Below, piece after piece: positions 7,679-59,734 of a stretch of DNA of 64,000 nt. Within the stretch, counting starts at the first letter, position 1. The number at the start of each line of letters is the position of its first letter. A program made the position numbers and the translations under genes. The notes beneath the pieces were generated by a model. It searched no databases and had not been told where the DNA came from. It was given only the letters and a program-made list of their open reading frames with translations. The DNA is from Streptomyces sp. MRC013 (GTDB lineage Bacteria > Actinomycetota > Actinomycetes > Streptomycetales > Streptomycetaceae): positions 806,001-870,000 of the forward strand of contig NZ_CP094264.1 of NCBI RefSeq assembly GCF_023614235.1, given 5' to 3'.

Positions 7679-8156
7679 GTGCTCCGGGTCGGGCGGTGGT
7701 CGCAGCCACGGCACCGTCCGACCCGGTACGTCCGCCCGGTGCCGCCGGGCCGGAACCGGCGCGGCACGTGCCGCCCGCCGCCGGCGCCCACCGGGCCCGG
7801 TCGTCCGCCGTCCGCGGCGCCGGACCCGGCGGGCCGTCGCGGCGGCCCGCGGGCTCCGCTCCGCTCCTCCGGCCGCACGGAGGCCGCGGGCCGCCCCGCA
7901 CCCCTCCGCTCCTCACGCCCCGGCCACCGCGGCCGGGGCGTCCGCGTACGGCCCCGGGCGGACCGCCGCGGCCCGGGGCGCGCTCCCCCGCCGCCGGGTC
8001 CGGCACGTACCGGACCGGGGGCCGGGCCTCCGGCCGCGGAGGGTGCGTCCGCGGGGCCGCGCCGTCGCCACCGTCCGGGGTGCCGCCGCCGGGTCGGCGC
8101 TCCGTGCCGTGGAGGGGCCGCCGGGGGCTGCCGCCGTCGAGGCGGCGGAGGGGTCG
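7679..8156. other. Intergenic, very GC-rich
   Basis: About 480 bases after the COG0523 gene with a hairpin (7916-7940). The minus-strand frame of the His-rich protein stays open right through here by lack of stop codons, but its composition turns into anonymous Pro/Arg/Gly. Confidence 0.5.
7916..7940. terminator. Hairpin, possible terminator
   Basis: A perfect 10-bp stem CGCCCCGGCC/GGCCGGGGCG with a 5-nt loop, about 240 bases beyond the COG0523 stop. It could end transcripts from either side. Confidence 0.5.
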
Positions 8157-8309
8157 GTGGTCGTCCCAGTGCCCGTCGTGCGCCGCGTGCCGGTGGCCGT
8201 CGTGGGCGTGGTCGACGTGGTCCCCGTGGGGAACCGCCACGTGGCCGCAGCCCTCGCCGTGGGCGTGGTCGTGCCCGGGGTGCGGCCGGTGCTCCGCTGC
8301 CGTCGTCAT
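8157..8309 (-). CDS. Small His-rich putative metal-binding protein (C-terminus unresolved)
   Basis: From ATG 8309 the first 51 residues are strikingly His-rich: PGHDHAHGEGCGHVAVPHGD then HVDHAHDGHRHAAHDGHWDDH, about a third His plus one Cys. I recall similar short proteins in Streptomyces that end just after this segment, but here no stop follows and the frame stays open to 7512 with low-complexity content. The end given is therefore the end of the recognisable part. An upstream in-frame ATG (8318) and GGAG nearby make the start reasonable. Its place between the COG0523 gene and a metallophore-type importer suggests metal buffering or delivery. Either the stop was lost or there is an indel. 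Confidence 0.6.
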
Positions 8310-8596: not shown

Positions 8597-9609
8597 TCAG
8601 CTCTCGAGGGAGCGCAGGTACTTCGCGAACTTCTCCAGACCGTCGATGTTCCGCGGCCCGCTGATGCCTTCGTTGTAGTCGAGGATGAAGAAGTTGTTCT
8701 TCTTCACGGCGGGGAGCTCCCTGGTGTGGGGGGACTTCTTCAGGAACTCGATCTTCTTCTCGGCGGGCTGGTCGCCGTAGTCGAGGATCATGACCACCTC
8801 GGGTTCGGCCTCGGCGACGGCCTCCCAGTTGACCTGGGTCCACCGCTGGTCGAGGCCGTCGAAGACGTTCCGGCCGCCGGCGGTCTCGATGATGTCGTTC
8901 GGCGGCACCTGGTTGCCCGCGGTGAAGGGCTGGTCGGTGCCCGAGTCGTAGAGGAAGACCGGCACCGGGTCGCCGCCCCGGGGCGCCTGGGCCTTGACGG
9001 CCTCCACGCGCTTCTTCAGGCCGCCGACGACCTCGGCCGCCTTCTTCTCGACCCTGAAGATCCTGCCGAGCCGGTCGAGGTCGGTGTAGAGGGCCTCGAA
9101 CGGGGTGACCTTCTCCGGGTACTCCGGGTAGTTGAAGCAGCTCTCCGTGTGCATGAAGCTCTGGATGTCGAGCTTGTCGAGGATCTCGGGGGTGATGCCC
9201 CGCTCGTCCTTGAAGCCGGAGTTCCAGCCGGCGACGACGAGGTCGGCCTTGGCCTCCACGACGAGCTCCTTGTTGAGGAGGTCGTCGCTGAGCATCTTCA
9301 CCTTGGCGTACTCCGACGCCCACGGGGACTCGCTCACCGGCGGGTTCGCGGGCGGCATGACGTACCCGTGCACGTGCTCGGTGAGGCCGAGGCTGAAGAG
9401 CTTGTCGGCGCTCCCCCCTCGTACGCCACGACGCGCTTGGGGAGGGTGTACTCGACCGGCTCGCCGCAGCGCTTGACGGTGACCTTGTCGGACGCCTTGG
9501 CGTCCGGCTCGACCTCGGCGCCGCAGCCGCCGAGCAGCAGGACGGCCGCGGCCGCGGAACCGGGGGCGGCGCGGCGCCGCGCCGGGCGGGGAAGTCTGGT
9601 GGTGCGCAT
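8597..9609 (-). CDS. Metallophore ABC transporter substrate-binding lipoprotein (frameshifted)
   Basis: A periplasmic-binding-type lipoprotein of the FecB/BtuF class, about 337 residues once one frameshift is repaired. The N-terminus has a basic region, a hydrophobic run and lipobox LGGC with the lipidated Cys at 29. The remaining part has two-lobed binding-protein features (KLDIQSFMHTESCFNYPEYPE, GGRNVFDGLDQRWTQVNWEAV, PEVVMILDYGD). The frame breaks after KRVVAYEGG in a C6 run (9413-9418). One more base restores SADKLFSLGLTEHVHGYVMPP, so one base seems missing. It is the last gene of the operon with the ATPase and permease; the ligand is probably a metal-chelator complex. Confidence 0.88.
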
Positions 9610-10400: not shown

Positions 10401-11546
10401 TCAGCGGCCTCCGAACATGTAGCCCCTGCGGCGCATCAGGACGATGAACACCGGTACTCCGACGAGCGCGGTGATGACGCCCAGCGGCAGTTCGCGCGGG
10501 GCCACCAGGGTCCGGGACACCAGGTCGACCCAGACCATGAAGATCGCACCGGCCAGCGGGGCGACCGCGAGCACGCGGGCGTGGACGGCCCCGACGACCA
10601 TGCGCACCACGTGCGGCATGACCAGTCCGACGAAGGCGATGGCGCCGCTGACGGCGACCATCACGCCCGTCACCAGCGAGACGAGCACGAGGAGGCCCTT
10701 GCGGTGCCGGTCGGGGCTGACGCCCAGGCTGGCGGCGGTCTCGTCCCCGAGTGCCAGGACGTCCAGCGCCCGACCGTACCGGTGGAGCACGACCAGCCCG
10801 AGCAGGACGACGGCCGACACGACGGGCAGGGCGCCCCAGGTGGCGGCGCCGAAGCTGCCCATCGTCCAGTACAGGACCATGCTGGTCGCCTCGCTGTCGG
10901 GCGCGAAGTAGATGATCACGCTCATCACCGCCTGGAACCCCAGCGACATCGCCACCCCCGTCAGGACCAGGCGCAGCGGCGAGAGGGTGCCGCGGCTGGA
11001 GGAGGCGGCGTACACCAGCAGCGACGCCACCAGCGCGCCGACGAAGGCGCCGGCCGACACCGCGTAGATGCCCAGTACCGCCAGGCCGCCGGTGACGGTG
11101 ACGCCGACGGCGCCGACGGACGCCCCCGACGAGACACCGAGGACGAACGGGTCGGCGAGCGCGTTGCGCACCATCGCCTGGATGGCGACGCCGATCGCGC
11201 TCAGGCCGGCCCCCACGAGCGCCGCCAGCAGCACCCGCGGCGTGCGGATCTGCCAGATGATCTGGTACGTGGTCACCTCGTCCGCCCCGATGCCCCCGCC
11301 GCTGAGGGCCGCCCAGAGGTAGCGGGCGGTCCGGCCGGGTGCGATCACGGCGGATCCCAGCCCGATGGCCGTGACCACGGAGGCGAGGAGGACGACGAAG
11401 AGGAGGGCGCAGACCGCGACCAGGCTCTTGCGGGAGGCGAGCCGGTCCCTCACGCCCGCGGCGGGACCGGGGGCCGGGGAGTCGGCCTCCGGGGCGTCGG
11501 CCGCGGCGGCGCCGACCGGTGGTGGGGAGATCGCGGGCGGAGGCAT
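10401..11546 (-). CDS. FecCD-family metallophore ABC permease
   Basis: A 381-residue integral membrane permease with about ten hydrophobic segments after a 38-residue Pro/Ala-rich cytoplasmic tail. Family motifs: RTPRVLLAALVGAGLSAIGVAIQ, NALADPFVLGVSSGAS, LALGDETAASLG (coupling helix to the ATPase) and GAIAFVGLVMPHVVRM. Only one permease gene is present, so it should act as a homodimer. It is the first gene of the permease-ATPase-binding protein operon, and a Zur-like box sits 25-39 bases before its ATG. Confidence 0.95.
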   Translation of the reverse strand: MPPPAISPPPVGAAAADAPEADSPAPGPAAGVRDRLASRKSLVAVCALLFVVLLASVVTAIGLGSAVIAPGRTARYLWAALSGGGIGADEVTTYQIIWQIRTPRVLLAALVGAGLSAIGVAIQAMVRNALADPFVLGVSSGASVGAVGVTVTGGLAVLGIYAVSAGAFVGALVASLLVYAASSSRGTLSPLRLVLTGVAMSLGFQAVMSVIIYFAPDSEATSMVLYWTMGSFGAATWGALPVVSAVVLLGLVVLHRYGRALDVLALGDETAASLGVSPDRHRKGLLVLVSLVTGVMVAVSGAIAFVGLVMPHVVRMVVGAVHARVLAVAPLAGAIFMVWVDLVSRTLVAPRELPLGVITALVGVPVFIVLMRRRGYMFGGR

Positions 11547-11570: not shown

Positions 11571-11585
11571 CGACAATCATGTTCG
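11571..11585 (-). promoter_or_regulatory. Candidate Zur box upstream of the importer operon
   Basis: Read on the minus strand, CGAACATGATTGTCG matches 11 of 15 bases of TGAAAATGATTTTCA and shares the core ATGATTGTC with the strong box at 15213-15227. The position, 25-39 bases before the permease start, suits repression. Confidence 0.6.
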
Positions 11586-11651: not shown

Positions 11652-12923
11652 TTACCCGGCGCCCGCCGCCTCCCGCTCCTCCGCGCCCCCTCGGGACACC
11701 AGGAGGGCGGCACCGAGCGCCACGACGACGAGGGCGCCGAAGACGGCGGCGATGCCCGGGTAGCCGGCCAGGCCGAGGCCCGCGCCGCCCAGGGCCGCGC
11801 CCACGAAGACCCCGAGGCTCTGGCCCGCGGAGTTGAGGCTCAGGGCGGAGCCGCGCAGCGGGCCGCAGCGCCGCACCAGCAGGCTCACGGCGCAGGCGGC
11901 CACGAGCGCGTGGCTCGCCGCGTGGAGCGCGGTCAACGCGAGGGCGAGCGGAAGCCAGTGGGTGAAGTAGAAGCCCACGACCGACACCAGGGCCGCGACC
12001 AGGCCGAGGACGAGCAGCCGCTCGGTGCTGGTCCGGGTCCCCTCGGAGTTCGCGATCCGCCCGGTCAGGAGGTTGCTCACGAAGAACGACGCGCCGCTCA
12101 GCGTCCAGACGAGCGCGAAGAGCCCGGGATCGAGCTGGAACCGTTCGTCGTAGTAGGCCGCCAGATAGGCCAGGTACCCCATGAACACCGCGGTGCGGAG
12201 CAGGGAGACCAGCAGCAGCGGCACCGCTCCGCGCACCGCTCCCAGCGCCTTGAACGACGCGACGTAGCTCAGGCGCCGCCCGCTCCCGGCCGCCTCGGGC
12301 TCCTTCGGCCCGCTCCGTGCGAGGAAGACCGCGGCGAGGAGGACCGAGACCGCGCCCACGGCGACGAGGTCCCCCTCCCAGCCCCACAGGAGGGCGGGCA
12401 GGGCCACGACCGGCGCGGCGAGCATCGCGGTCATCGACTGGGTGGCCGTCACCAGGGTCGCCGCCCGGCCGGCCGCCTTGCCGGCGCCGAAGCGGTCGGC
12501 GGCCGCCGCGGTGAGGGCCGGGTTCAGCACGGCCGTGCTCGCGCCGACCAGCAGGCAGAAGACCGCCAGCAGGACGAAGTCCCCGCTCGCGCCCAGCACC
12601 GCCGAGGCGCCGAGGGCGGCGAGCCCGCCCGCGGCCGCCCACTCCTTGCGCACCCGGTCGACGAAGGGGGCGAGCGCCGTGCCGACCAGCAGGGCGGCCA
12701 GGCCGCCGAGTCCGCGCAGGCCGCCCATGGCGGCGACGCTGCTGCCGGCCTCGTCCGCGATCGGCACGAGGTAGGTGCTGAAGATGGTGAACGGCAGCAG
12801 GCCGACCGCCGAGGCGAGGAGGACCGGCCACAGGGCGCGGGCCATCCTCAGGTCGCCCGGCAGCGGTTCCTCCGCCTCCGGGGCCTCCCGGTCCGTCGCG
12901 GGGTTCTCGGTGCCGGCGCTCAC
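11652..12923 (-). CDS. MFS exporter, putative metallophore efflux
   Basis: A 423-residue major facilitator protein with about 12 transmembrane segments, for example LWPVLLASAVGLLPFTIFSTYL, LLVSLLRTAVFMGYLAYLAAYY and SLNSAGQSLGVFVGAALGGAG. The loop between segments 2 and 3 (FVDRVRKEW) is the usual site of the MFS Gly/Asp motif in degenerate form. GTG 12923 overlaps the stop of the DUF364 gene by four bases (GTGA), so the two are translationally coupled. In this setting export of the finished chelator is the simplest role; antibiotic efflux is the alternative. Confidence 0.85.
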   Translation of the reverse strand: MSAGTENPATDREAPEAEEPLPGDLRMARALWPVLLASAVGLLPFTIFSTYLVPIADEAGSSVAAMGGLRGLGGLAALLVGTALAPFVDRVRKEWAAAGGLAALGASAVLGASGDFVLLAVFCLLVGASTAVLNPALTAAAADRFGAGKAAGRAATLVTATQSMTAMLAAPVVALPALLWGWEGDLVAVGAVSVLLAAVFLARSGPKEPEAAGSGRRLSYVASFKALGAVRGAVPLLLVSLLRTAVFMGYLAYLAAYYDERFQLDPGLFALVWTLSGASFFVSNLLTGRIANSEGTRTSTERLLVLGLVAALVSVVGFYFTHWLPLALALTALHAASHALVAACAVSLLVRRCGPLRGSALSLNSAGQSLGVFVGAALGGAGLGLAGYPGIAAVFGALVVVALGAALLVSRGGAEEREAAGAG

Positions 12924-13765
12924 GAGCCGTCCCCGTTCGCGCGTGCCGGCCTGTCGGCGCGGTAGCGGTACATGGACGTCGGGTCGGCGCTGAACTGCGA
13001 GAAGGGGAAGGGCTCGGCGTTCAGGGCGGTGACCCCGCCGCCCAGGAAGGCGCGGGCGACGGCGCTGCCGGTCTGCGCGTAGACGACCAGGGGGACGCCC
13101 TGCTCCCGGCAGTGCTCGAGGATCAGGTCGAACGTTCCGTTGCTCAGGGTCATGCCGGTGGCGACGACGGCGTCGGCCTCCCCGAGGACCTCGGTCATGT
13201 CGTCGCTGACCTGCTCGCCCCACTGGGTGGTGCGCAGGTTCAGGTCGCAGGGGAGGCAGACGCCTCCCCGGTCGCGTATCGCCGCGACCAGGGGGTTGAC
13301 CACCCCGATGAGCGCCACCTTCGCACCCGGCTCGATGTCGAGGAGGCCGGCGATGGAGGCGTCGCGGGCCCGGGCGCGGACCTCGGGCGTCCCGATCGGC
13401 AGCGCGACCGGCTCGGCCTCGTCCGCCTCCCGGTGCGGCCGCGCCTCGGAGAGGTACGCGTCGAGGGCGGCGACCCGGACCGGGGTGGAGTCGTGGCGCA
13501 GCAGCGTGTCCAGGGTGTGGCCGGAGGCGTTCTCGCAGAAGTCGGGGGTCAGTTCGCCGGCTTCGAAGGAGCAGGCGCCGAAGGACCGCCCGACCCGGAC
13601 GACGAGGTAGTGGTTGTGGTACGTGACCTGGCCCCCGGCCAGCCGGGTGGTGTGGTAGAGCCAGAACGCGCTGGTGACGGAGAGGTCCTTCGGGTCGGGG
13701 CCGTGGGCGCCCGACAGCACGGCGTCGGTCAGTTCCGCGACGGTCCGCGGCGTGGGGTGTGGCAT
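12920..13765 (-). CDS. DUF4213/DUF364 Rossmann-like putative heavy-metal chelation protein
   Basis: A 281-residue soluble protein. Residues about 20-110 resemble the DUF4213 N-terminal fold. Residues about 145-260 match DUF364 (named putative heavy-metal chelation domain): KVALIGVVNPLVAAIRDRG, then EADAVVATGMTLSNGTFDLIL, then GVPLVVYAQTG. Cys residues at CSFEAGELTPDFCEN and VCLPCDLN could bind metal. Members are found with metal enzymes and transporters, but their biochemistry is poorly known. Here it sits between the PLP enzyme and the MFS gene, coupled to the latter, so a catalytic or tailoring step in chelator assembly is plausible. ATG 13765 follows GAAGGA at normal spacing. Confidence 0.8.
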   Translation of the reverse strand: MPHPTPRTVAELTDAVLSGAHGPDPKDLSVTSAFWLYHTTRLAGGQVTYHNHYLVVRVGRSFGACSFEAGELTPDFCENASGHTLDTLLRHDSTPVRVAALDAYLSEARPHREADEAEPVALPIGTPEVRARARDASIAGLLDIEPGAKVALIGVVNPLVAAIRDRGGVCLPCDLNLRTTQWGEQVSDDMTEVLGEADAVVATGMTLSNGTFDLILEHCREQGVPLVVYAQTGSAVARAFLGGGVTALNAEPFPFSQFSADPTSMYRYRADRPARANGDGS

Positions 13766-13849
13766 CTCGGTTCCTTCGTCGGGGTGGTGGGCGGTGCCCT
13801 GGGGTTCGGGCCGGCCGGTCCCGGTGGTGGCCGGGCCGGCCGGGGGCGC

Positions 13850-14854
13850 TCAGCGCCCGGGCGCGGTGCGCAGGTCGGACCAGGACGCGGTCGACCAGGG
13901 GTGCCTGAGCTCTTCGAGGGAGGTGACCTCGTGCGGCTTCAGGGTGTCGATGTCCCGGGCCTCCGCGTGCCTGGCGTAGGCGCCGTCGACGTAGCGGTGG
14001 CCGGTGTCGGCGGCGATGAACACGTAGGTGCGGGAGGTGTCCCTCCGGCGCTCCCAGTGGGCGGTGAGGTAGGCGGCGCCGGCCGACAGGCCGGCGAAGA
14101 CGCCGCTGCTGCGGAGGAGTTCGACGGCGCCGGAGAGCGCGTGGTCGAAGTTGACCCAGTGGATCCTGTCGTAGAGCTCGTGCCGGACGTTGCGGAACTC
14201 GATGGCGCTGCCGATCCCGGCGATGATCATGTCCGGGTCCGACACGTGCTCGGCGCCGAAGGTGACGCTGCCGAAGGGCTGCACGCCGACGAGCGAGACG
14301 TCCCTGCCGGTCTCCCTCAGGTAGGTGGTGAGGGCGCCGGTGGAGGCGCCCGTGCCCACGCCGCCCACCAGGGTCAGGGGCCCCTCGGGGACCTCCCGGT
14401 CGATCGTCGCGGCCACGTCGCGGTAGCCGTGGTAATGGATGCTGTCGTGGTACTGCCGCATCCAGTGGTAGGAGGGGTTCTCCTCCAGGATCTCGGCGAT
14501 GCGCCGCACCCGGAGTTCCTGGTCGAGGCGGAGGTCCTTCGAGGGCCTGACCTGCTCCAGCGTGACGCCGAGGATCTCCAGCTGCGCCCGCAGGGTCCGG
14601 TCCACGGTCGTGGACCCCACGATGTGGCACTTCATCCCGTAGCGGTGGCAGGCGAGCGCCAGGGCGTGCGCGTAGATCCCGCTGGAGCTGTCGACGAGCG
14701 TGTCGCCGGGTTCGACGGCGCCGGTCTCCAGGAGGTGGCGCACCGCTCCCAGGGCCGAGTAGACCTTCATCGTCTCGAACCGCACGCAGACCAGGTCCGG
14801 CTGCAGGGATATGAGGTCCGGTTCCTTGATCGCTTCTGCTGCGTGTGCGTACAT
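13850..14854 (-). CDS. Cysteine-synthase-like PLP enzyme (SbnA-like beta-substitution)
   Basis: A 334-residue fold-type II PLP enzyme. The predicted Schiff-base Lys is Lys30 in FETMKVYSALGA. SSSGIYAHALALACHRYG replaces the TSGNTG substrate loop of cysteine synthases, and GGVGTGASTGALTTYL is the phosphate-binding Gly loop. The altered substrate loop argues against housekeeping cysteine synthesis. Family relatives such as SbnA replace the phosphate of O-phospho-L-serine with an amino acid amine to start a metallophore. Together with the divergent GHMP kinase, which could supply O-phospho-Ser/Thr, this suggests synthesis of a diamino or aminopolycarboxylate building block. A strong Zur-like box lies 350 bases upstream. 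Confidence 0.85.
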   Translation of the reverse strand: MYAHAAEAIKEPDLISLQPDLVCVRFETMKVYSALGAVRHLLETGAVEPGDTLVDSSSGIYAHALALACHRYGMKCHIVGSTTVDRTLRAQLEILGVTLEQVRPSKDLRLDQELRVRRIAEILEENPSYHWMRQYHDSIHYHGYRDVAATIDREVPEGPLTLVGGVGTGASTGALTTYLRETGRDVSLVGVQPFGSVTFGAEHVSDPDMIIAGIGSAIEFRNVRHELYDRIHWVNFDHALSGAVELLRSSGVFAGLSAGAAYLTAHWERRRDTSRTYVFIAADTGHRYVDGAYARHAEARDIDTLKPHEVTSLEELRHPWSTASWSDLRTAPGR

Positions 14855-15211
14855 ACCCGTCTTCCCGTCAGGCGGCCGTGCCGCGAAGCTTTTCGATCCG
14901 GCCGGTCCGGACGCCGCCCGCGGTTCCGCGGGGTCCGCCGGCCGCCGGGGCGGCGCCGCCGGGCGGCCGGCCGCGGACCGTCCGGTCCGCCCCCGGTGCG
15001 GGCGTCCGGTGCGCGCGGCGGGCCCGCCGCGGGGCCGGCTCCGGCGGCGACCCGCGCTCCGGGGACGGGGGCGGAGGACGCCGGCGGGGCGGTCGCGCCC
15101 CCGCGCCGGCGGGGGCGCCGGGAAGGGCCGTCGTACGGGCCCGGTTCCGCTCGCCCATGCTTCCTCCTCGTGCCGGGTGCCGATGGGATCGAGCCGCGAG
15201 CATCACAGTAG

Positions 15212-15228
15212 ATGAAAATGATTGTCAA
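15212..15228 (-). promoter_or_regulatory. Strong candidate Zur box (PLP enzyme operon)
   Basis: ATGAAAATGATTGTCAA contains TGAAAATGATTGTCA at 15213-15227, 14 of 15 bases of the palindrome TGAAAATGATTTTCA. It is the best match in the window and lies in a short AT-rich island within very GC-rich DNA. Confidence 0.8.
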
Positions 15229-15346
15229 ATCCGGCCATGGCCCCCACGGGGGGCGCCGCGACGCCCGGAGCCCCCGCCCGGCGGGGGACGCGCGGAGGGC
15301 AAGCCGGCGCGACCGCCCCCGACTTGCCCGTTCCCGCGGGACCCAT

Positions 15347-15363
15347 ATAAAAACGATTATCGG
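15347..15363 (+). promoter_or_regulatory. Candidate Zur box (kinase gene)
   Basis: ATAAAAACGATTATCGG; its core TAAAAACGATTATCG matches 11 of 15 positions of the Zur palindrome. It ends 33 bases before the kinase start, where promoter elements are expected. Confidence 0.6.
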
Positions 15364-15395
15364 ATTCACTGCACACTCTGACAAGAAGGGGTTCC

Positions 15396-16358
15396 GTGGA
15401 GCTGCCGCAGAAGGCCGGATCACGACCCTGCCCGCCGCCGCGCGGGCCGGGGGCGGCCGGAGTGGGGACCGCCTTCGGCACCTTCGGCGAGCTGCTCCAG
15501 GGCGCGCTGCCGGAGAAGGACGGGGACTTCCTCGTCACGCTGCCCGTCGCCCGGTGGACCAGGGCGGCCTTCCGGCCCGATCCGGACGCGGACGGCCTGG
15601 TGGTCCGGCCGGCCTGGAAGCGGAAGGCCCTGCGCCTGGCCCGCATGATCGTCGAGGAGGAGGCGCCGCGCCCGGTCGGCGGGGAGCTGACCGTCCACAG
15701 CCTCATCCCGGAGGGCAAGGGGCTGGCCAGCTCCTCGGCCGACCTGGTCGCGACCGCGCGGGCGGTGGGGCGGGCCCTGGGCCTGGCGATGCCGGCCGCC
15801 CGGATCGAACGGTTCCTGGCCCGCATCGAGCCCACCGACGGCGTGCTCTACCCGGGCATCGTCGCCTTCCACCACCGCAGCGTGCGGTTGCGCGCGGTCC
15901 TCGGGTCCCTGCCGGCCATGGCCGTGGTGGGCATCGACGAGGGCGGTGCGGTCGACACGGTGGACTTCAACCGCGCCCCCAAGCCGTTCACGGCGGCCGA
16001 CCGGCACGAGTACGCGCGCCTGCTGGACCGGCTCGCCGGTGCCGTGCGCTCCCGCGACCTGGCGGAGGTGGGCAGGGTCGCGACCCGGAGCGCGCTGATG
16101 AACCAGTCCCTCCGGCACAAGTGGTCCCTGGAGCACATGTGCGGGATCTGCCGCGAGGTCGGCGGACTGGGCGTCGCCGTCGGCCACAGCGGCACGACGC
16201 TCGGCGTGCTGCTGGACACCGCCGACCCCGCGTACCCGCATCGCGCCACCGCGGCGGCGCAGGCGTGCACGGGGCTCGCGGGGGGTGTGGCGGTCTACCG
16301 GACCCTCAGCTTCCCGGGCGTCCTCGGCCCGGCAGCGGACCTGCCCGTACCCGCGTGA
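15396..16358 (+). CDS. GHMP-family kinase, PduX-like L-threonine/serine kinase
   Basis: A 320-residue GHMP kinase. GTFGELLQGALPE (about 28-40) is the family N-terminal motif. IPEGKGLASSSADL (about 104-117) is the Gly/Ser-rich ATP loop, and IEPTDGVLYPGIVAF marks the PduX (L-threonine kinase) branch. GVAVGHSGTTLGVLLD corresponds to motif 3. PduX phosphorylates L-threonine in cobalamin side-chain assembly, but no cobalamin gene is nearby. Here the kinase faces a cysteine-synthase-like enzyme that would use an O-phospho-amino acid. GTG 15396 follows AAGAAGGGG. A Zur-like box lies upstream. The exact substrate (Thr, Ser or homologue) cannot be read from the sequence. Confidence 0.88.
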   Translation: MELPQKAGSRPCPPPRGPGAAGVGTAFGTFGELLQGALPEKDGDFLVTLPVARWTRAAFRPDPDADGLVVRPAWKRKALRLARMIVEEEAPRPVGGELTVHSLIPEGKGLASSSADLVATARAVGRALGLAMPAARIERFLARIEPTDGVLYPGIVAFHHRSVRLRAVLGSLPAMAVVGIDEGGAVDTVDFNRAPKPFTAADRHEYARLLDRLAGAVRSRDLAEVGRVATRSALMNQSLRHKWSLEHMCGICREVGGLGVAVGHSGTTLGVLLDTADPAYPHRATAAAQACTGLAGGVAVYRTLSFPGVLGPAADLPVPA

Positions 16359-27439: not shown

Positions 27440-27487
27440 CATGATGATCCGCGGATGAGCGAGAGGTGTGCCGGGAGAGTGGCGAAC

Positions 27488-30400
27488 GTGCGTTTACTGC
27501 TTCTGGGCCCACTCGAACTGCGCGACCGCGACGGTCGGCCGGTGCCGCCGGGCGGTCGCCGCGTCGGCCTGCTCCTCGCCCGGCTCGCGCTCACCCCCGC
27601 CGAACTCGTCCCCACCGGCACCCTCGTCGCCGACCTGTGGGAGGACGAGCCGCCGGCCGCCGGCGGGATCAACGCACTGCACCGGCTGGTCTCCCGGGCC
27701 CGCCGCACGCTTCACCGGGCCGGCCACGACGACGTGGGCGTGGTCTCGGGACCCGGTGGCTACACCCTGGCCGTCGACCCGTCGGACGTGGACGCGCACC
27801 GGTTCGAACGGCTCGCGGCGGAAGGCCGCCGGCTGCTGCGCGCGGGCACCCCCGAGCAGGCCGCGTCGGTGCTCCGGGAGGCCCTGTCGCTCTGGCGCGG
27901 TCCGGTCCTGCCCGAGTTCGCCGACGTCGGGTTCGCCGGGCGCGCCGCCACCCGGCTGGAGGAGCTGCGGCTCGCCGCCGTCGAGGACCACGTCGAGGTC
28001 CGGCTGGAGCCGGGCCGCGCGCCGGAGCTCCTGTCCGAGCTGTACGACCTGACCACCGCGCACCCCCTGCGGGAGCGCGCCACCGGTCTCCTCATGCGCG
28101 CCCTCCAGCTCTCGGGCAGCCCGGCGGAGGCGCTCGCCGCGTACGAGCGGCTGCGTGCCGCGCTCGCCGACGAGCTCGGTGCCGTGCCGTCGGCCGAGTT
28201 GCGGCGCCTCCACGCCGAGGCGCTGACCGACGGCGCCCGGCGGGGCGCGGCCGGCGCTCCCGACGGGCCCGCCGGCGTGCGGCCCCGGAGCGCCGGACCC
28301 GGAGCGGCGGCCACGGCGTCCGCGCCGCCGTCCGGCGCGCCCGCGCCGACCGGGAAGCGGGGCCTGCCCAGTCCCATCACCCGCTTCGTCGGCCGCTCCG
28401 GCGAGCTGCAGCGGGTGGCGGCCTCCCTGCGCGGTTCCCGGCTGGTCACGCTGTACGGGCCGGGCGGGGTGGGCAAGACCCGGCTCGCCGCCGAGTTCGC
28501 CTCCCGCGCCGACTCGGGCACCGCCGACCTGGTGCGCCTGGTCGAACTCGCCGGGCTCCGCGCCGGCGACGACCTGCCCGACACGGTCGCGCGGGCGCTC
28601 GGGCTGCCCGGCGCCCCCCTGCTGGAGCAGCCCCAGTCCGGGCGCAGCCGGTTCGACCAGCTCACCGCCTTCCTGTCGGCCCGGCGCGTCCTGCTGGTCC
28701 TCGACAACTGCGAGCACCTCATCACGGAGGTCTCCCGGTTCGCCTCCGAGCTGCTGGCCGCCTGCCCGCGGCTGCTGCTCCTCGCCACCAGCCGCGAACC
28801 GCTGATGATCACCGGTGAGGCGATGTGCCGGGTCGACCCGCTGCACCTTCCGTCGTCCGAAGCCGAGGCCGAGCACTCCACCGCCGTGCAGCTCTTCTGC
28901 GACCGGGCCGCGCTGGTGCGCCCCGGCTTCGCCCTCACCCCGGCCAACGCGGCCCAGGTGGTGGAGGTCTGCCGCAAGCTCGACGGGCTGCCGCTGGCGA
29001 TCGAACTCGCCGCCGCCCGGCTGCGGTCGATGTCCCTCCAGCAGATCACCGAACGCCTCGACGACCGCTTCCGGCTCCTGGCGGCCGGCAACCGCACCAC
29101 CGCCGCCCGGCACCGCACCCTGCGCGCCACCATGGACTGGAGCTGGGCGCTGCTGACCGAACCCGAGCGCGCCCTGGCCCGGCGGCTCTCCGCGGCCGGG
29201 AACGGCGTGACCCAGGACGCGGCCGCCGCCGTCGGCGCGGGTCCGGGCCTGGCGGAGGAGGACGTGCCGTACGTCCTGTCCTCGCTGGTCGACAGGTCCC
29301 TGCTGCACCTGTGGGAGACCGAGGACGGCGAGATGCGCTACCGCATGCACGAGACCACCAGGGCGTACTGCGCGGAGCGCCTCGCCGAGGCCGGTGAGCG
29401 CGAGTCGGCGGAGGCCGCCTGCACCCGGCACTTCCTCGAACTCGCGGAGCGCGCCGCCGGGCACCTGCGCGGTACGGGCCAGGCGCGCTGGATCACCCGG
29501 CTCGACGCCGACCACGGCAACGTGCTGCTGGCCCTGCGCCGGGCCGTGGACGGCGGGGACGTCGACACCGCGGTCCGGCTGGGGCTGGCCCTGAGCTGGT
29601 ACTGGGTCATGCGCGGCCGGTACACCGAGGCCAACAGCCGGTGCGCCGAGCTGATGCGGTTCGGTGCGCGCGTGCCGGAGAGGGCCGCGGCCCTGTTCAC
29701 CACGTTGCGGCTGCTGCTGCCCGCGCCCCCCGGCCGCGACCCGGACGGCGGGGACCGCGACCAGGGCGTCGCCGAGGCGGCCCGGCGGGCCCGCGACTGC
29801 GACGCCATGGGCGAGCACCCCCTGCTGGCCCTGTTGGAACCCAAGTGCTGGCAGCTCGCGGGCGAACACGAGGAGATGGAGCGCAGCGCCCGGCGGGCCT
29901 GCGCCCACCCGGACGCCTGGGCACGGGCCTCCGGCCGTGCCGCCCTCGGCTTCGCGGCGGAGACCGCGGGCGACGTCGGCGCGGGCGAACGGCACCTGCG
30001 GGCCGCGTTGGAGTCGTTCCGCGAGCTGGGCGACCAGTGGTCCACGGGCCAGCTCACCTCCATGCTGTCCCGGTTCACCTCGCTGCGCGGGGACACCGAA
30101 GGGACGCTGGCGCTGCTGCACGAGGCGCACGACGCGATCGAGGCGGTCGGCTCGGCCGACGACATCGCGCAGATCCGGGTGCGGCTCGGCTTCGAGCAGC
30201 TCCGCTCCGGGGAGTACAACGCCGCGGAGGTGAGCTTCCGCCGCGTACTGCACGGCCCGCGGCGCACCATGCCCGAGCACGAGGTGCTCGTGGCCGCGGG
30301 CATGGCGGAGCTGGCCATCCGCCGCGGGCAGCCGCCCATCGCCTCCATGCGGCTCGAACGGGCGCTGCGGCTGCTCGACGACACCCTCATCGACAAGGAG

Positions 30401-30778
30401 TACCTGCGCATCGAGGTGCTGCGGCGCACCGCCGCGCTGGAGTTGTCGCAGGAGACGGGGGACGTCGCCGCGGCCCGGTCGGCGGCGGCCGAGGCGCTGC
30501 GGCTGGCGCTGCCGCTCAACGACATGTGGGTGCTCGCCACGGTCGCCGAGCTGCTGGCGACGGTCGCCCTGCACGAGGGCGGGCCGGAGCGGGCGGCGCG
30601 GCTGCTCGGCACGGCGACGGCGCTGCGGGGCCTGGCGGACCTGGGGAGTCCCGAGGTGCGGGCCCTGGGCGAGGAGCTGACCGCGCGGCTGGGCGCGGCG
30701 GAGTTCCGCCGGGTGCGCGCGGAGGGCGAACACCTCTCCCGGGAGGCGGCGGTGCGCGCGCTGGTGGCCGCGGTCTGA
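27488..30778 (+). CDS. AfsR/SARP-family activator with NB-ARC and TPR-like region (TTA codon)
   Basis: About 1,096 residues. Residues 1-80 form the OmpR-like DNA-binding domain ([30 protein letters not shown]). Residues 85-240 are the bacterial transcriptional activation (BTAD) domain. Residues about 300-620 are NB-ARC with P-loop LYGPGGVGKTRLA (about 321-333), VLLVLDNCEHL (Walker B) and GLPLAIELAAARL. The rest is helical and TPR-like. GTG 27488 is preferred since GGGAGAG precedes it at good spacing and relatives start VR(F/L)xxLGPL; ATG 27455 would add 11 residues. Codon 3 (27494-27496) is TTA. A pathway-specific activator of the NRPS cluster is the likely role. Confidence 0.93.
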   Translation: MRLLLLGPLELRDRDGRPVPPGGRRVGLLLARLALTPAELVPTGTLVADLWEDEPPAAGGINALHRLVSRARRTLHRAGHDDVGVVSGPGGYTLAVDPSDVDAHRFERLAAEGRRLLRAGTPEQAASVLREALSLWRGPVLPEFADVGFAGRAATRLEELRLAAVEDHVEVRLEPGRAPELLSELYDLTTAHPLRERATGLLMRALQLSGSPAEALAAYERLRAALADELGAVPSAELRRLHAEALTDGARRGAAGAPDGPAGVRPRSAGPGAAATASAPPSGAPAPTGKRGLPSPITRFVGRSGELQRVAASLRGSRLVTLYGPGGVGKTRLAAEFASRADSGTADLVRLVELAGLRAGDDLPDTVARALGLPGAPLLEQPQSGRSRFDQLTAFLSARRVLLVLDNCEHLITEVSRFASELLAACPRLLLLATSREPLMITGEAMCRVDPLHLPSSEAEAEHSTAVQLFCDRAALVRPGFALTPANAAQVVEVCRKLDGLPLAIELAAARLRSMSLQQITERLDDRFRLLAAGNRTTAARHRTLRATMDWSWALLTEPERALARRLSAAGNGVTQDAAAAVGAGPGLAEEDVPYVLSSLVDRSLLHLWETEDGEMRYRMHETTRAYCAERLAEAGERESAEAACTRHFLELAERAAGHLRGTGQARWITRLDADHGNVLLALRRAVDGGDVDTAVRLGLALSWYWVMRGRYTEANSRCAELMRFGARVPERAAALFTTLRLLLPAPPGRDPDGGDRDQGVAEAARRARDCDAMGEHPLLALLEPKCWQLAGEHEEMERSARRACAHPDAWARASGRAALGFAAETAGDVGAGERHLRAALESFRELGDQWSTGQLTSMLSRFTSLRGDTEGTLALLHEAHDAIEAVGSADDIAQIRVRLGFEQLRSGEYNAAEVSFRRVLHGPRRTMPEHEVLVAAGMAELAIRRGQPPIASMRLERALRLLDDTLIDKEYLRIEVLRRTAALELSQETGDVAAARSAAAEALRLALPLNDMWVLATVAELLATVALHEGGPERAARLLGTATALRGLADLGSPEVRALGEELTARLGAAEFRRVRAEGEHLSREAAVRALVAAV

Positions 30779-36162: not shown

Positions 36163-36372
36163 TCAGGCGCCCATGGCCTCGACGAGGCTCTTGGGCCGCA
36201 TGTCGGTCCAGTGGGTGTTGATGTACTCGACGGCCTCGGCGCGGGAGGTCTCGGCCAGGACGGTCTCCCAGCCGGCCGGCACCTCGGCGAAGGACGGCCA
36301 CAGGGAGTGCTGGCCCTCGGCGTTGACCAGGACCAGGTAGGTGGCGTTCTCGTCCTCGAAGGGGTTGCTCAT
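36163..36372 (-). CDS. mbtH: MbtH-family NRPS partner protein
   Basis: A 69-residue MbtH-like protein: [34 protein letters not shown] and [14 protein letters not shown] carry the invariant Trp residues and the N-P-F-(E/D)-D start. Such proteins bind adenylation domains and are often required for their folding or activity. It is the last gene of the NRPS operon, 107 bases after the end of the two-module NRPS. Confidence 0.97.
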
Positions 36373-58360: not shown

Positions 58361-59734
58361 TCAGGCGGCCTGGCAGATTTCGCCCGCCCGGCGCAGGGTC
58401 CGGCCGTTGTACTGCATGAGGTCGGCCGGGCGGCCCTTCCGGGACCTGAGGAAGCGGCCGCTGAACAGCACGTCGCCCTGGTCCGCGGCCCGCACGCTGA
58501 AGATGAGGTCGGAGCCGACGGTGAGCGTCCCGGAGACGCCGTTGTCCGCGTCCAGGCGCAGCTTGCCGCCGTTCCCCTCGGGGAACACGCGGATGGCGAG
58601 CTCGCCGTTGACGAACTCACCGGCGAGCGCGGCGGCCTCGTCGCACGGACGGCCCGCGGGAGCGGGCTGCTCGTAGTGGCCGACACGCAGGCCGAAGGTG
58701 CGGTCCAGCTCGCCGACGAGGTCGAACCAGGCGGCCAGGCCGGTGGTGGAGTTGGTGGTGAAGGCGAGGGCGGTGCCGCTGGCCTGGTCGACGCGGACGT
58801 TGCAGGAGCCGCCGTCGAGGGTGCCGTCGTGGCCGAGCCACAGGCTCTCCCCGGCGGGGTAGAGGCCCCAGCCGGCGCCCCATCCCGCGGCCAGGCCGAA
58901 CGGCTCGGCGGCCGGCACGGCGTGGCCCATCACCGCCAGCACGTCGGGGTCGGCGATGTCGGCGTCCAGGGCCCCGTGGCCCTCGCCGAGGAACGCCCGG
59001 CCGAAGCGCACCAGGTCGGTGGCGCTGCCCGCGAGGCCCCCGGCCGCGGCCAGCGTCGACTCGCAGTAGAAGTCCACGGGCTCGGTGCGGCCGGTCCGCG
59101 CGTTCACGGCGTGGCCGCTCACGGCGGCGCCCGGTCCGCGGCCCGGGCGCGGGTCCTCGATGAACGCGAGGTCCAGCCCGGTCGGGTGTGCCAGGTACGA
59201 CTCCAGCGAGTCCCACCAGCTCTGCCCGGTGAGCACCTCGATGACGTACGCGGCCACGGCGTAGCCGGTGTTCGAGTAGGAGAAGGCGGTGCCGGGCACG
59301 CCGAAGTGCCCCTCGCGTACGACGGACTCGAAATAGCGGCGCAGGGACGGGGAGCGCAGCGGGGTTCCCTCGTAGTCGGACACGAGCCCGGCGGTGTGGC
59401 TCAGCAGCTGGCGGAGCGTCACCTCGTGCATCGGGTGGTCCGCGGGCACCGCCGTGTGCCCCGCGATGTCCGCGAGGACCTCCATGACGGGAGTGTCGAG
59501 TTCCACCTCGCCCTCTTCGACCAGCTGCATGACGAGCGCGGCCGTGAAGACCTTGCTCACCGAGCCGTAGGCGAAGCGGGACTTCACGGACACCGGCACG
59601 TCGGAGCCGATCCGCTCGACGCCGGTGCACACCTCCCACAGCGTGCCGCCGCTGTACAGGGACAGCTGGGCTCCGGGTATCCGGTGGTCGCGAACCAGTT
59701 CGTTCACCATGCCGGAGAGGACGCCGACATCCAT
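58361..59734 (-). CDS. PBP-type stand-alone thioesterase / peptide cyclase
   Basis: A 457-residue serine hydrolase of the beta-lactamase/penicillin-binding-protein fold. SxxK motif is Ser58-Val-Ser-Lys61 in YGSVSKVF; YxN is Tyr153-Ser-Asn155 in FSYSNTGY; third motif is HDG at 302-304 in [13 protein letters not shown]-terminal beta-rich (lipocalin-like) domain follows from about 380. It has no signal peptide and no transmembrane segment, unlike a true PBP or secreted beta-lactamase. First gene of the operon whose NRPSs lack a thioesterase and finish with an E domain. Relatives (SurE, DsaJ and MppK types) release and cyclise peptides that have a D C-terminal residue, head to tail. An independent esterase or beta-lactamase is the less likely alternative. 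Confidence 0.9.

Follow-up and report, generated by a model that had tools for sequence, protein, structure and literature searches.

A candidate zincophore unit pairing a cysteine-synthase-like enzyme with a DUF364 protein in Streptomyces and other actinobacteria

In the accessible text of reviews, the actinomycete metallophores placed under the zinc regulator Zur are coelibactin and EDDS (ethylenediamine-disuccinic acid), together with the sid genes of Mycobacterium avium subsp. paratuberculosis. EDDS is described in the available parts of its reports as Zur-regulated and made without non-ribosomal peptide synthetases (NRPS) or NRPS-independent siderophore (NIS) synthetases (PMC4993170, PMC9252823), and a described aminopolycarboxylate cluster combines, in the text accessible for it, a cysteine synthase with a diaminopimelate decarboxylase and an ornithine cyclodeaminase (PMC13206832). 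Here we analyze a 64,000-nucleotide stretch of Streptomyces sp. MRC013 (contig NZ_CP094264.1, positions 806,001 to 870,000; hereafter the window), in which a cysteine-synthase-like enzyme using pyridoxal phosphate (PLP) and a DUF364 protein are encoded with an MFS transporter and a FecCD-type importer next to a divergent GHMP kinase gene. We consider it likely that this locus specifies a Zur-repressed zincophore system whose conserved unit contains no NRPS. The best reading of its distribution and upstream sequences is a core of PLP enzyme, DUF364 protein, exporter and importer under a predicted Zur promoter, with the kinase as a partner in some groups.

The window is part of a 5.33-Mb Streptomyces genome (G000:C1:806001-870000), with the cluster at 0.82 Mb, and is closest to S. 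somaliensis (96% identity for the PLP enzyme, 89% for the kinase). On the minus strand the PLP enzyme gene is followed by those for the DUF364 protein, the MFS transporter, the FecCD permease, the ATPase and the binding protein, and the kinase gene diverges from this operon on the plus strand. The four genes first picked out by a sequence-only reading of the window (kinase, PLP enzyme, DUF364 protein and MFS transporter) and the FecCD-type importer are all found in their assigned places with Pfam support; of the double label DUF4213/DUF364 given there, DUF364 was matched and DUF4213 had no match at E 0.001. The features are:

15396-16358, plus strand: GHMP kinase (KIN), proposed amino-acid kinase; GHMP_kinases_N 42.8 bits (Pfam)
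13850-14854, minus strand: cysteine-synthase-like PLP enzyme; PALP 112 bits (Pfam), SSSGIYA loop, presumed catalytic K30 (FETMK)
12920-13765, minus strand: DUF364 protein, proposed second biosynthetic enzyme; PF04016 45.6 bits against a gathering cut-off of 23
11652-12923, minus strand: MFS transporter, proposed exporter; MFS_1 93.4 bits, overlapping the end of the DUF364 gene
10401-11546, minus strand: FecCD-type permease; FecCD 288.7 bits
9626-10399, minus strand: ABC ATPase; ABC_tran 112 bits
8597-9609, minus strand: substrate-binding lipoprotein gene; Peripla_BP_2 86.7 bits on 8597-9373, frame interrupted in the assembly
about 8150-8309 (limits read by eye), minus strand: short His-rich frame downstream of the binding-protein gene, possible zinc-binding accessory
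15213-15227, between the divergent kinase and PLP operons: Zur box TGAAAATGATTGTCA, 0 mismatches to the Zur motif
15199-15228, minus strand: predicted PLP-operon promoter; -35 TTGACA at 15228-15223, -10-like GATGCT at 15204-15199
15348-15362, plus strand: weak second Zur-like site ahead of the kinase gene; 3 of 11 fixed positions mismatched, counted by eye
11571-11585, minus strand: weak Zur-like site ahead of the importer genes; 2 of 11 fixed positions mismatched

The assembly divides the binding-protein gene between two overlapping frames, 9334-9609 and 8597-9373, and S. somaliensis (L013) shows an open frame; the break may be either real or a sequencing artefact. His-rich frames like that at 8150-8309 also occur in L013, L019, L049 and L068.

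The conservation of this unit was assessed in a genome scan that confirmed 191 loci. Of these the best 80 were taken, together with 20 stretches from further relatives; the sample is biased toward close relatives because only these best 80 entered. After removal of the duplicates L093-L095 (second copies of L014, L022 and L034) 97 loci were scored, the short L001-L012 being kept out of the counts. Five groups on the PLP-enzyme tree make up an 86-locus set, with the window's group and group B resting on unstarred forks of 82/89 and 92/99, and 11 rows (L079, L098, L100-L102, L106 and L108-L112), in which the PLP gene has other surroundings, fall outside it. The DUF364 gene accompanies the PLP gene in 83 of the 86 loci, more often than by chance, the negative ones being L023 and L026, on cut contigs, and L067, whose flanks are complete but hold no match to DUF364 or MFS. 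MFS genes are present in 79 loci, FecCD importers in 52, Nik-type importers in 22 and at least one importer type in 71, and 61 loci combine DUF364, MFS, importer and a Zur-like box. The PLP enzyme and the DUF364 protein stay paired while importer type and gene order vary, in hosts including Streptomyces, Kribbella, Pseudonocardia, Amycolatopsis, Nocardiopsis, Kibdelosporangium and Microlunatus. Close DUF364 relatives (475 bits or more) were counted from the match list in 74 of 392 sampled Streptomyces genomes, and matches at E 1e-60 in 170 of the 392; in the class sample 30 of 394 had a match at that threshold, 21 of those reaching at least 395 bits. The expectation of a conserved four-gene unit therefore held for the PLP enzyme, the DUF364 protein and the exporter, with the importer in addition, and failed for the kinase, which stands outside the conserved core (40 of 86 loci). 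A methyltransferase-like protein, here called c6, is encoded in 35 of the 86 loci (weak Pfam matches), and a search of the window's genome did not reveal it; its identification as a nicotianamine-synthase-like enzyme was unsupported, c6 scoring just under the cut-offs of methyltransferase families.

Regulation by zinc is suggested by the box at 15213-15227, TGAAAATGATTGTCA, which the sequence-only reading had not mentioned and which differs at one position from TGAAAATGATTTTCA (two strand matches in the window). At up to three mismatches the latter had no match in 100 shuffled windows and five in the whole genome, and two of these five, serving as a positive control, lie in tandem where a ZnuA-domain gene (272.8 bits) begins. 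Furthermore, the box agrees without mismatch with tGaNNatSatNNtCa, the S. coelicolor Zur motif, which the accessible text of its report derives by chromatin immunoprecipitation from 172 Zur-enriched regions (PMC5472717). On the strand of the PLP gene the box overlaps a -35 element, TTGACA, with the -10-like GATGCT 18 bases on. This arrangement was compared in 53 fragments from 53 related loci, picked by five common box spellings: 50 of them have TTGACA inside or next to the box, and all 50 have NANNNT 17 or 18 bases on, a spacing seen in 5% once the downstream bases are shuffled. A Zur-like box, defined by at most two mismatches at 11 fixed positions, at least three A/T at the four free ones and a distance of up to 9.5 kb from the PLP gene, was detected in 75 of the 86 related loci as against 3 of 97 simulated loci. 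We accordingly predict that the promoter of the PLP operon is under Zur control. The Zur-like site of the importer operon is weak because none as good was found at the permease in 21 relatives; the model start there may fall inside the upstream gene. Metal control, originally put forward for zinc or iron alike, thus persists as a prediction specifically for zinc, through Zur boxes. Iron regulation is disfavored and was dropped, since the window contains no DmdR1-like site at up to three mismatches, and riboswitch control was dropped because the window has no Rfam match.

The PLP enzyme is distinguished by its SSSGIYA loop, the usual loop of such enzymes being of the SGN type. That this loop is unusual had been noticed in the window alone, and it is now seen in 93 of 98 aligned rows, the exceptions being the distant L108-L112; K30 and S56-A62 are invariant across 37 aligned sequences. 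The best NCBIfam model is SbnA (TIGR03945, E 4.4e-38), but with 131.1 bits against a cut-off of 349.95 the enzyme is SbnA-like and not SbnA, so that the earlier label holds and membership in SbnA itself fails. The solved proteins to which it is related in sequence are cysteine and cystathionine synthases, with SbnA included. In cysteine synthases a glycine-rich loop, which here holds position 168, binds the PLP phosphate. Among 78 full-flank rows, including the window, 34 combine Ser168 with a kinase and 42 combine Thr168 with its absence, which leaves one row with Thr and a kinase (the window) and one with Ser and no kinase (L108), so that 76 of 78 agree. On a quick tree from which eight cut rows were excluded, kinase presence and residue 168 each change four times, with three changes forced. 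Because kinase presence tracks Ser/Thr168, the kinase probably feeds the PLP enzyme, though the window's lineage breaks the pattern. In L108 (G030) the PLP relative with Ser168 is split over two frames, and no kinase is seen nearby.

The kinase is proposed to be L-threonine-kinase-like by its family and by the names of its relatives, some of which are called 'L-threonine kinase' or 'Threonine kinase in B12 biosynthesis' by their sources; G31, E32, Q35 and G36 are invariant in 27 aligned kinases, that of the window included. It is encoded in 21 of 25 loci of the window's group, 19 of 19 of group B and 0 of 42 of the other three groups, the kinase-less members of the window's group being three cut contigs and L053, which is not cut and has Thr168. 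No kinase homologue was found at E 1e-6 in 14 of 16 searched genomes with kinase-less clusters. With the kinase seen in 40 of the 86 loci but in 0 of the 42 that make up three groups, a dedicated kinase cannot be a general requirement of the PLP step. We therefore rejected the kinase as part of the core, and its place as an integral pathway step is not supported in the form first suggested. Group B differs from the window more in its kinases (32-37% identity) than in its PLP enzymes (62-67%), and on the kinase tree the group B kinases side with those of L109-L112. Separate recruitment of two kinase types was weighed from this tree and is not claimed; since the branching order of the groups is not settled by the PLP tree, one origin followed by losses and several origins are both possible.

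At E 0.001 the DUF364 protein matched a single solved structure, the DUF364 protein 3npg (E 1.7e-4), and in the alignment, read by eye, D174 of the window's protein lies opposite a 3npg glutamate. The available text of a 2010 paper on 3L5O (Dhaf4260), a member of the same Pfam family, describes a deep pocket between enolase-like and Rossmann-like domains, and its authors proposed a role in siderophore-like synthesis, by condensation or hydrolysis, and a metal-transporter context. Unlike the DUF364 protein of the window, Dhaf4260 has no partner PLP enzyme or Zur box in the accessible part of its description.

A second unit was seen in part of a weaker DUF364 group, from which seven stretches were fetched (L152-L158, several Streptomyces). 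It comprises genes for ATP-grasp, DUF364, PLP and MFS families and a Nik-type importer. The PLP enzyme adjoins DUF364 in all seven stretches, and an ATP-grasp-type family lies ahead of DUF364 in all seven, the one tested (L155) having an L-amino-acid-ligase C-terminal domain. An MFS-type family is present in six of the seven (not L156; Pfam-tested in L152 only), and six also have a Nik-type binding protein and six a Zur-like site, L153 having neither. The listed PLP enzymes of this unit are 29-32% identical to that of the window, with an STSGT loop in place of SSSGIYA. In three of the seven stretches an alpha/beta-hydrolase family (tested in L156) diverges from the unit.

Some of the rows outside the 86-locus set bear on the chemistry. 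The further SSSGIYA-type relatives L079, L098 and L100 sit with ATP-grasp genes, so that the product of the PLP enzyme may be a ligatable amino acid. In L098, L100, L101 and L102 the SSSGIYA-type PLP enzyme has ATP-grasp genes (tested for L098 and L100) and MFS-like genes as neighbors; neither DUF364 nor a Zur-like box was matched there, and this setting is perhaps another natural-product family. Kinase and PLP pairs with 29-34% PLP identity are accompanied in L110 and L112 by argininosuccinate-lyase homologues, which hint at aspartate as the amine donor there. In these two loci the lyase would plausibly free a diamino acid, and without a lyase the condensation product would remain, which could plausibly chelate metal in the manner of toxin A/aspergillomarasmine. 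The kinase and PLP pair of L109 lies beside an NRPS protein and that of L111 beside an aspartate/ornithine carbamoyltransferase.

Based on these observations we propose the following scheme. As zinc falls, Zur would leave the box at 15213-15227 and, as the sequence predicts, the divergent operons would be transcribed. The kinase would phosphorylate the hydroxyl of threonine or serine, and the PLP enzyme would expel the phosphate and attach an amine in its place. The nucleophile is most likely an amino acid, for example aspartate, and the result would be an N-linked diamino polycarboxylate. The DUF364 protein, judging from its co-conservation, may modify or extend this product; the chelator would then leave via the MFS transporter, and recovery of the zinc complex would fall to the FecCD-type ABC importer and its lipoprotein. 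In the kinase-less groups the same core would act, its substrate presumably being O-phosphoserine or O-acetylserine supplied by primary metabolism, with c6 added in some. More tentatively, it is possible that the PLP and DUF364 pair is a new core for actinobacterial zinc scavengers that exists in two architectures, both with Zur-like boxes (one in several groups, where a kinase or methyltransferase-like protein may or may not be present, and the ATP-grasp type), in which DUF364 would catalyze an undescribed bond-forming step leading to a new small aminocarboxylate zincophore scaffold.

Several observations weigh against this scheme. The degenerate Zur motif is unspecific in a GC-rich genome, with 38 places at up to one mismatch as against 9 for the reversed pattern, and the box was not seen in 11 of the 86 loci, five on cut contigs and six with full flanks. 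No kinase was seen in 46 of the 86, three of these being cut contigs of the window's own group. The window itself has Thr168, the kinase-less state, despite its kinase, as does its nearest relative L013; the contig of L013 is cut next to the PLP gene, and a kinase is listed for that species. The hint of aspartate stems from distant relatives only, and the binding-protein frame of the window is interrupted.

It is unlikely, in our estimate, that the same machinery makes a metallophore for iron, nickel or cobalt and that the Zur-like boxes mislead. FecCD and Nik-type importers, both established families, also serve iron and nickel carriers and 11 of 86 loci lack the box, but the box of the window fits the Zur motif, the znuA of the same genome has a box of the same type, and no DmdR1-like site was found in the window at up to three mismatches. 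Similarly doubtful is an EDDS-type pathway in which DUF364 takes the place of the decarboxylase and cyclodeaminase and the product is EDDS or a near homologue. The Zur regulation of EDDS, its independence of NRPS and NIS enzymes, and the cysteine synthase in a described cluster of its class, all taken from the partial texts cited above, would fit such a pathway. The genome of the window (G000), however, has matches to PF02423 (ornithine cyclodeaminase) only near 4.80 Mb, about 4.0 Mb from the cluster, and to PF02784 (diaminopimelate-type decarboxylase) only at 1.36 and 3.34 Mb, the nearest about 0.5 Mb away. Moreover, Streptomyces sp. WAC 01529 holds an adjacent PF02423-PF02784 pair about 0.69 Mb from its cluster, so that both kinds of cluster may coexist.

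We regard it as very improbable that the NRPS cluster at 36.2-58.7 kb of the window draws a diamino acid building block from the kinase and PLP enzyme. This MbtH-NRPS cluster lies 20 kb away, and the pair of L109 does stand beside an NRPS protein; yet an NRPS-like frame was found in only one of the 86 related loci (L047; the query was a piece of the window's NRPS), as expected from the initial view that the unit is NRPS-free, and the pair is accompanied instead by DUF364, transporters and a Zur box. Least probable of all is that the kinase is an ordinary cobalamin-related threonine kinase present here by chance, as the B12-related source names of some relatives could imply. The kinase diverges from the PLP operon across the Zur box in many Streptomyces, it lies beside the PLP gene in a second group too, and its presence tracks PLP residue 168. 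The sequence-only reading had named a cobalamin role as its own possible undoing; with no Rfam riboswitch in the window and no homologue in 14 of 16 kinase-less genomes this role is disfavored, cobalamin genes themselves not having been searched.

Few Zur-controlled metallophore pathways are known in actinomycetes, and the unit described here is common among Streptomyces. Through it DUF364, a family named 'putative heavy-metal chelation', can be linked to a partner enzyme, to a predicted regulator and to a route of transport, which makes its function directly testable. The natural contrast between Ser168 and Thr168, with and without the kinase, offers a handle on substrate choice.

Elsewhere in the window, the NRPS cluster (36163-58686, minus strand) consists of an MbtH-like gene (36163-36372) and three long frames that encode condensation, AMP-binding and PP-binding domains, and a beta-lactamase-family gene (58361-59734) adjoins it. 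A large BTAD/NB-ARC (SARP/AfsR-like) regulator gene (27455-30778, plus strand) lies between the zinc and NRPS clusters.

No description of a DUF364 and PLP metallophore was found in the titles and abstracts of the open-access literature, which is weak evidence of novelty because most subscription journals lie outside that coverage. Among described systems, the [S,S]-EDDS or aminopolycarboxylic-acid metallophores (Amycolatopsis japonicum; a class of antiSMASH 7), as far as their accessible descriptions go, have in common with the window's unit Zur control, the lack of NRPS and NIS enzymes and a cysteine-synthase-like enzyme; compared by description, that class has a cyclodeaminase and a decarboxylase where our unit has DUF364 and, in relatives, often a kinase or methyltransferase-like protein. 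The opine-like zincophores staphylopine and pseudopaline share the zinc theme and the dipeptide/Nik-type and FecCD importers, both importer types being reported for actinobacterial opine clusters in the available text of PMC7438024. The opine dehydrogenase family PF10100 was matched in 0 of 15 genomes, a search in which the control genomes gave no match either. The S. coelicolor genes SCO0472-0476 appear as Zur targets in the accessible part of their source. We do not claim them as a cluster of the same kind; part of this region is known as znuB2C2. SbnA, which acts with SbnB in the staphyloferrin B pathway, shares the PLP fold; the window's enzyme differs in its SSSGIYA loop and has no cyclodeaminase nearby, and the early remark that an SbnB-type partner is absent agrees with PF02423 occurring only about 4.0 Mb away. 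The dabABC genes of friulimicin reportedly form a module of kinase, cysteine-synthase-like enzyme and lyase for 2,3-diaminobutyrate. Modules of this type, to which the lyase-linked relatives L110 and L112 correspond, share with our locus the kinase next to the PLP enzyme; in the window's unit, by contrast, the Pfam scan revealed no lyase, just as had been anticipated, and the pair is joined instead by a DUF364 protein, an exporter, an importer and a Zur box.

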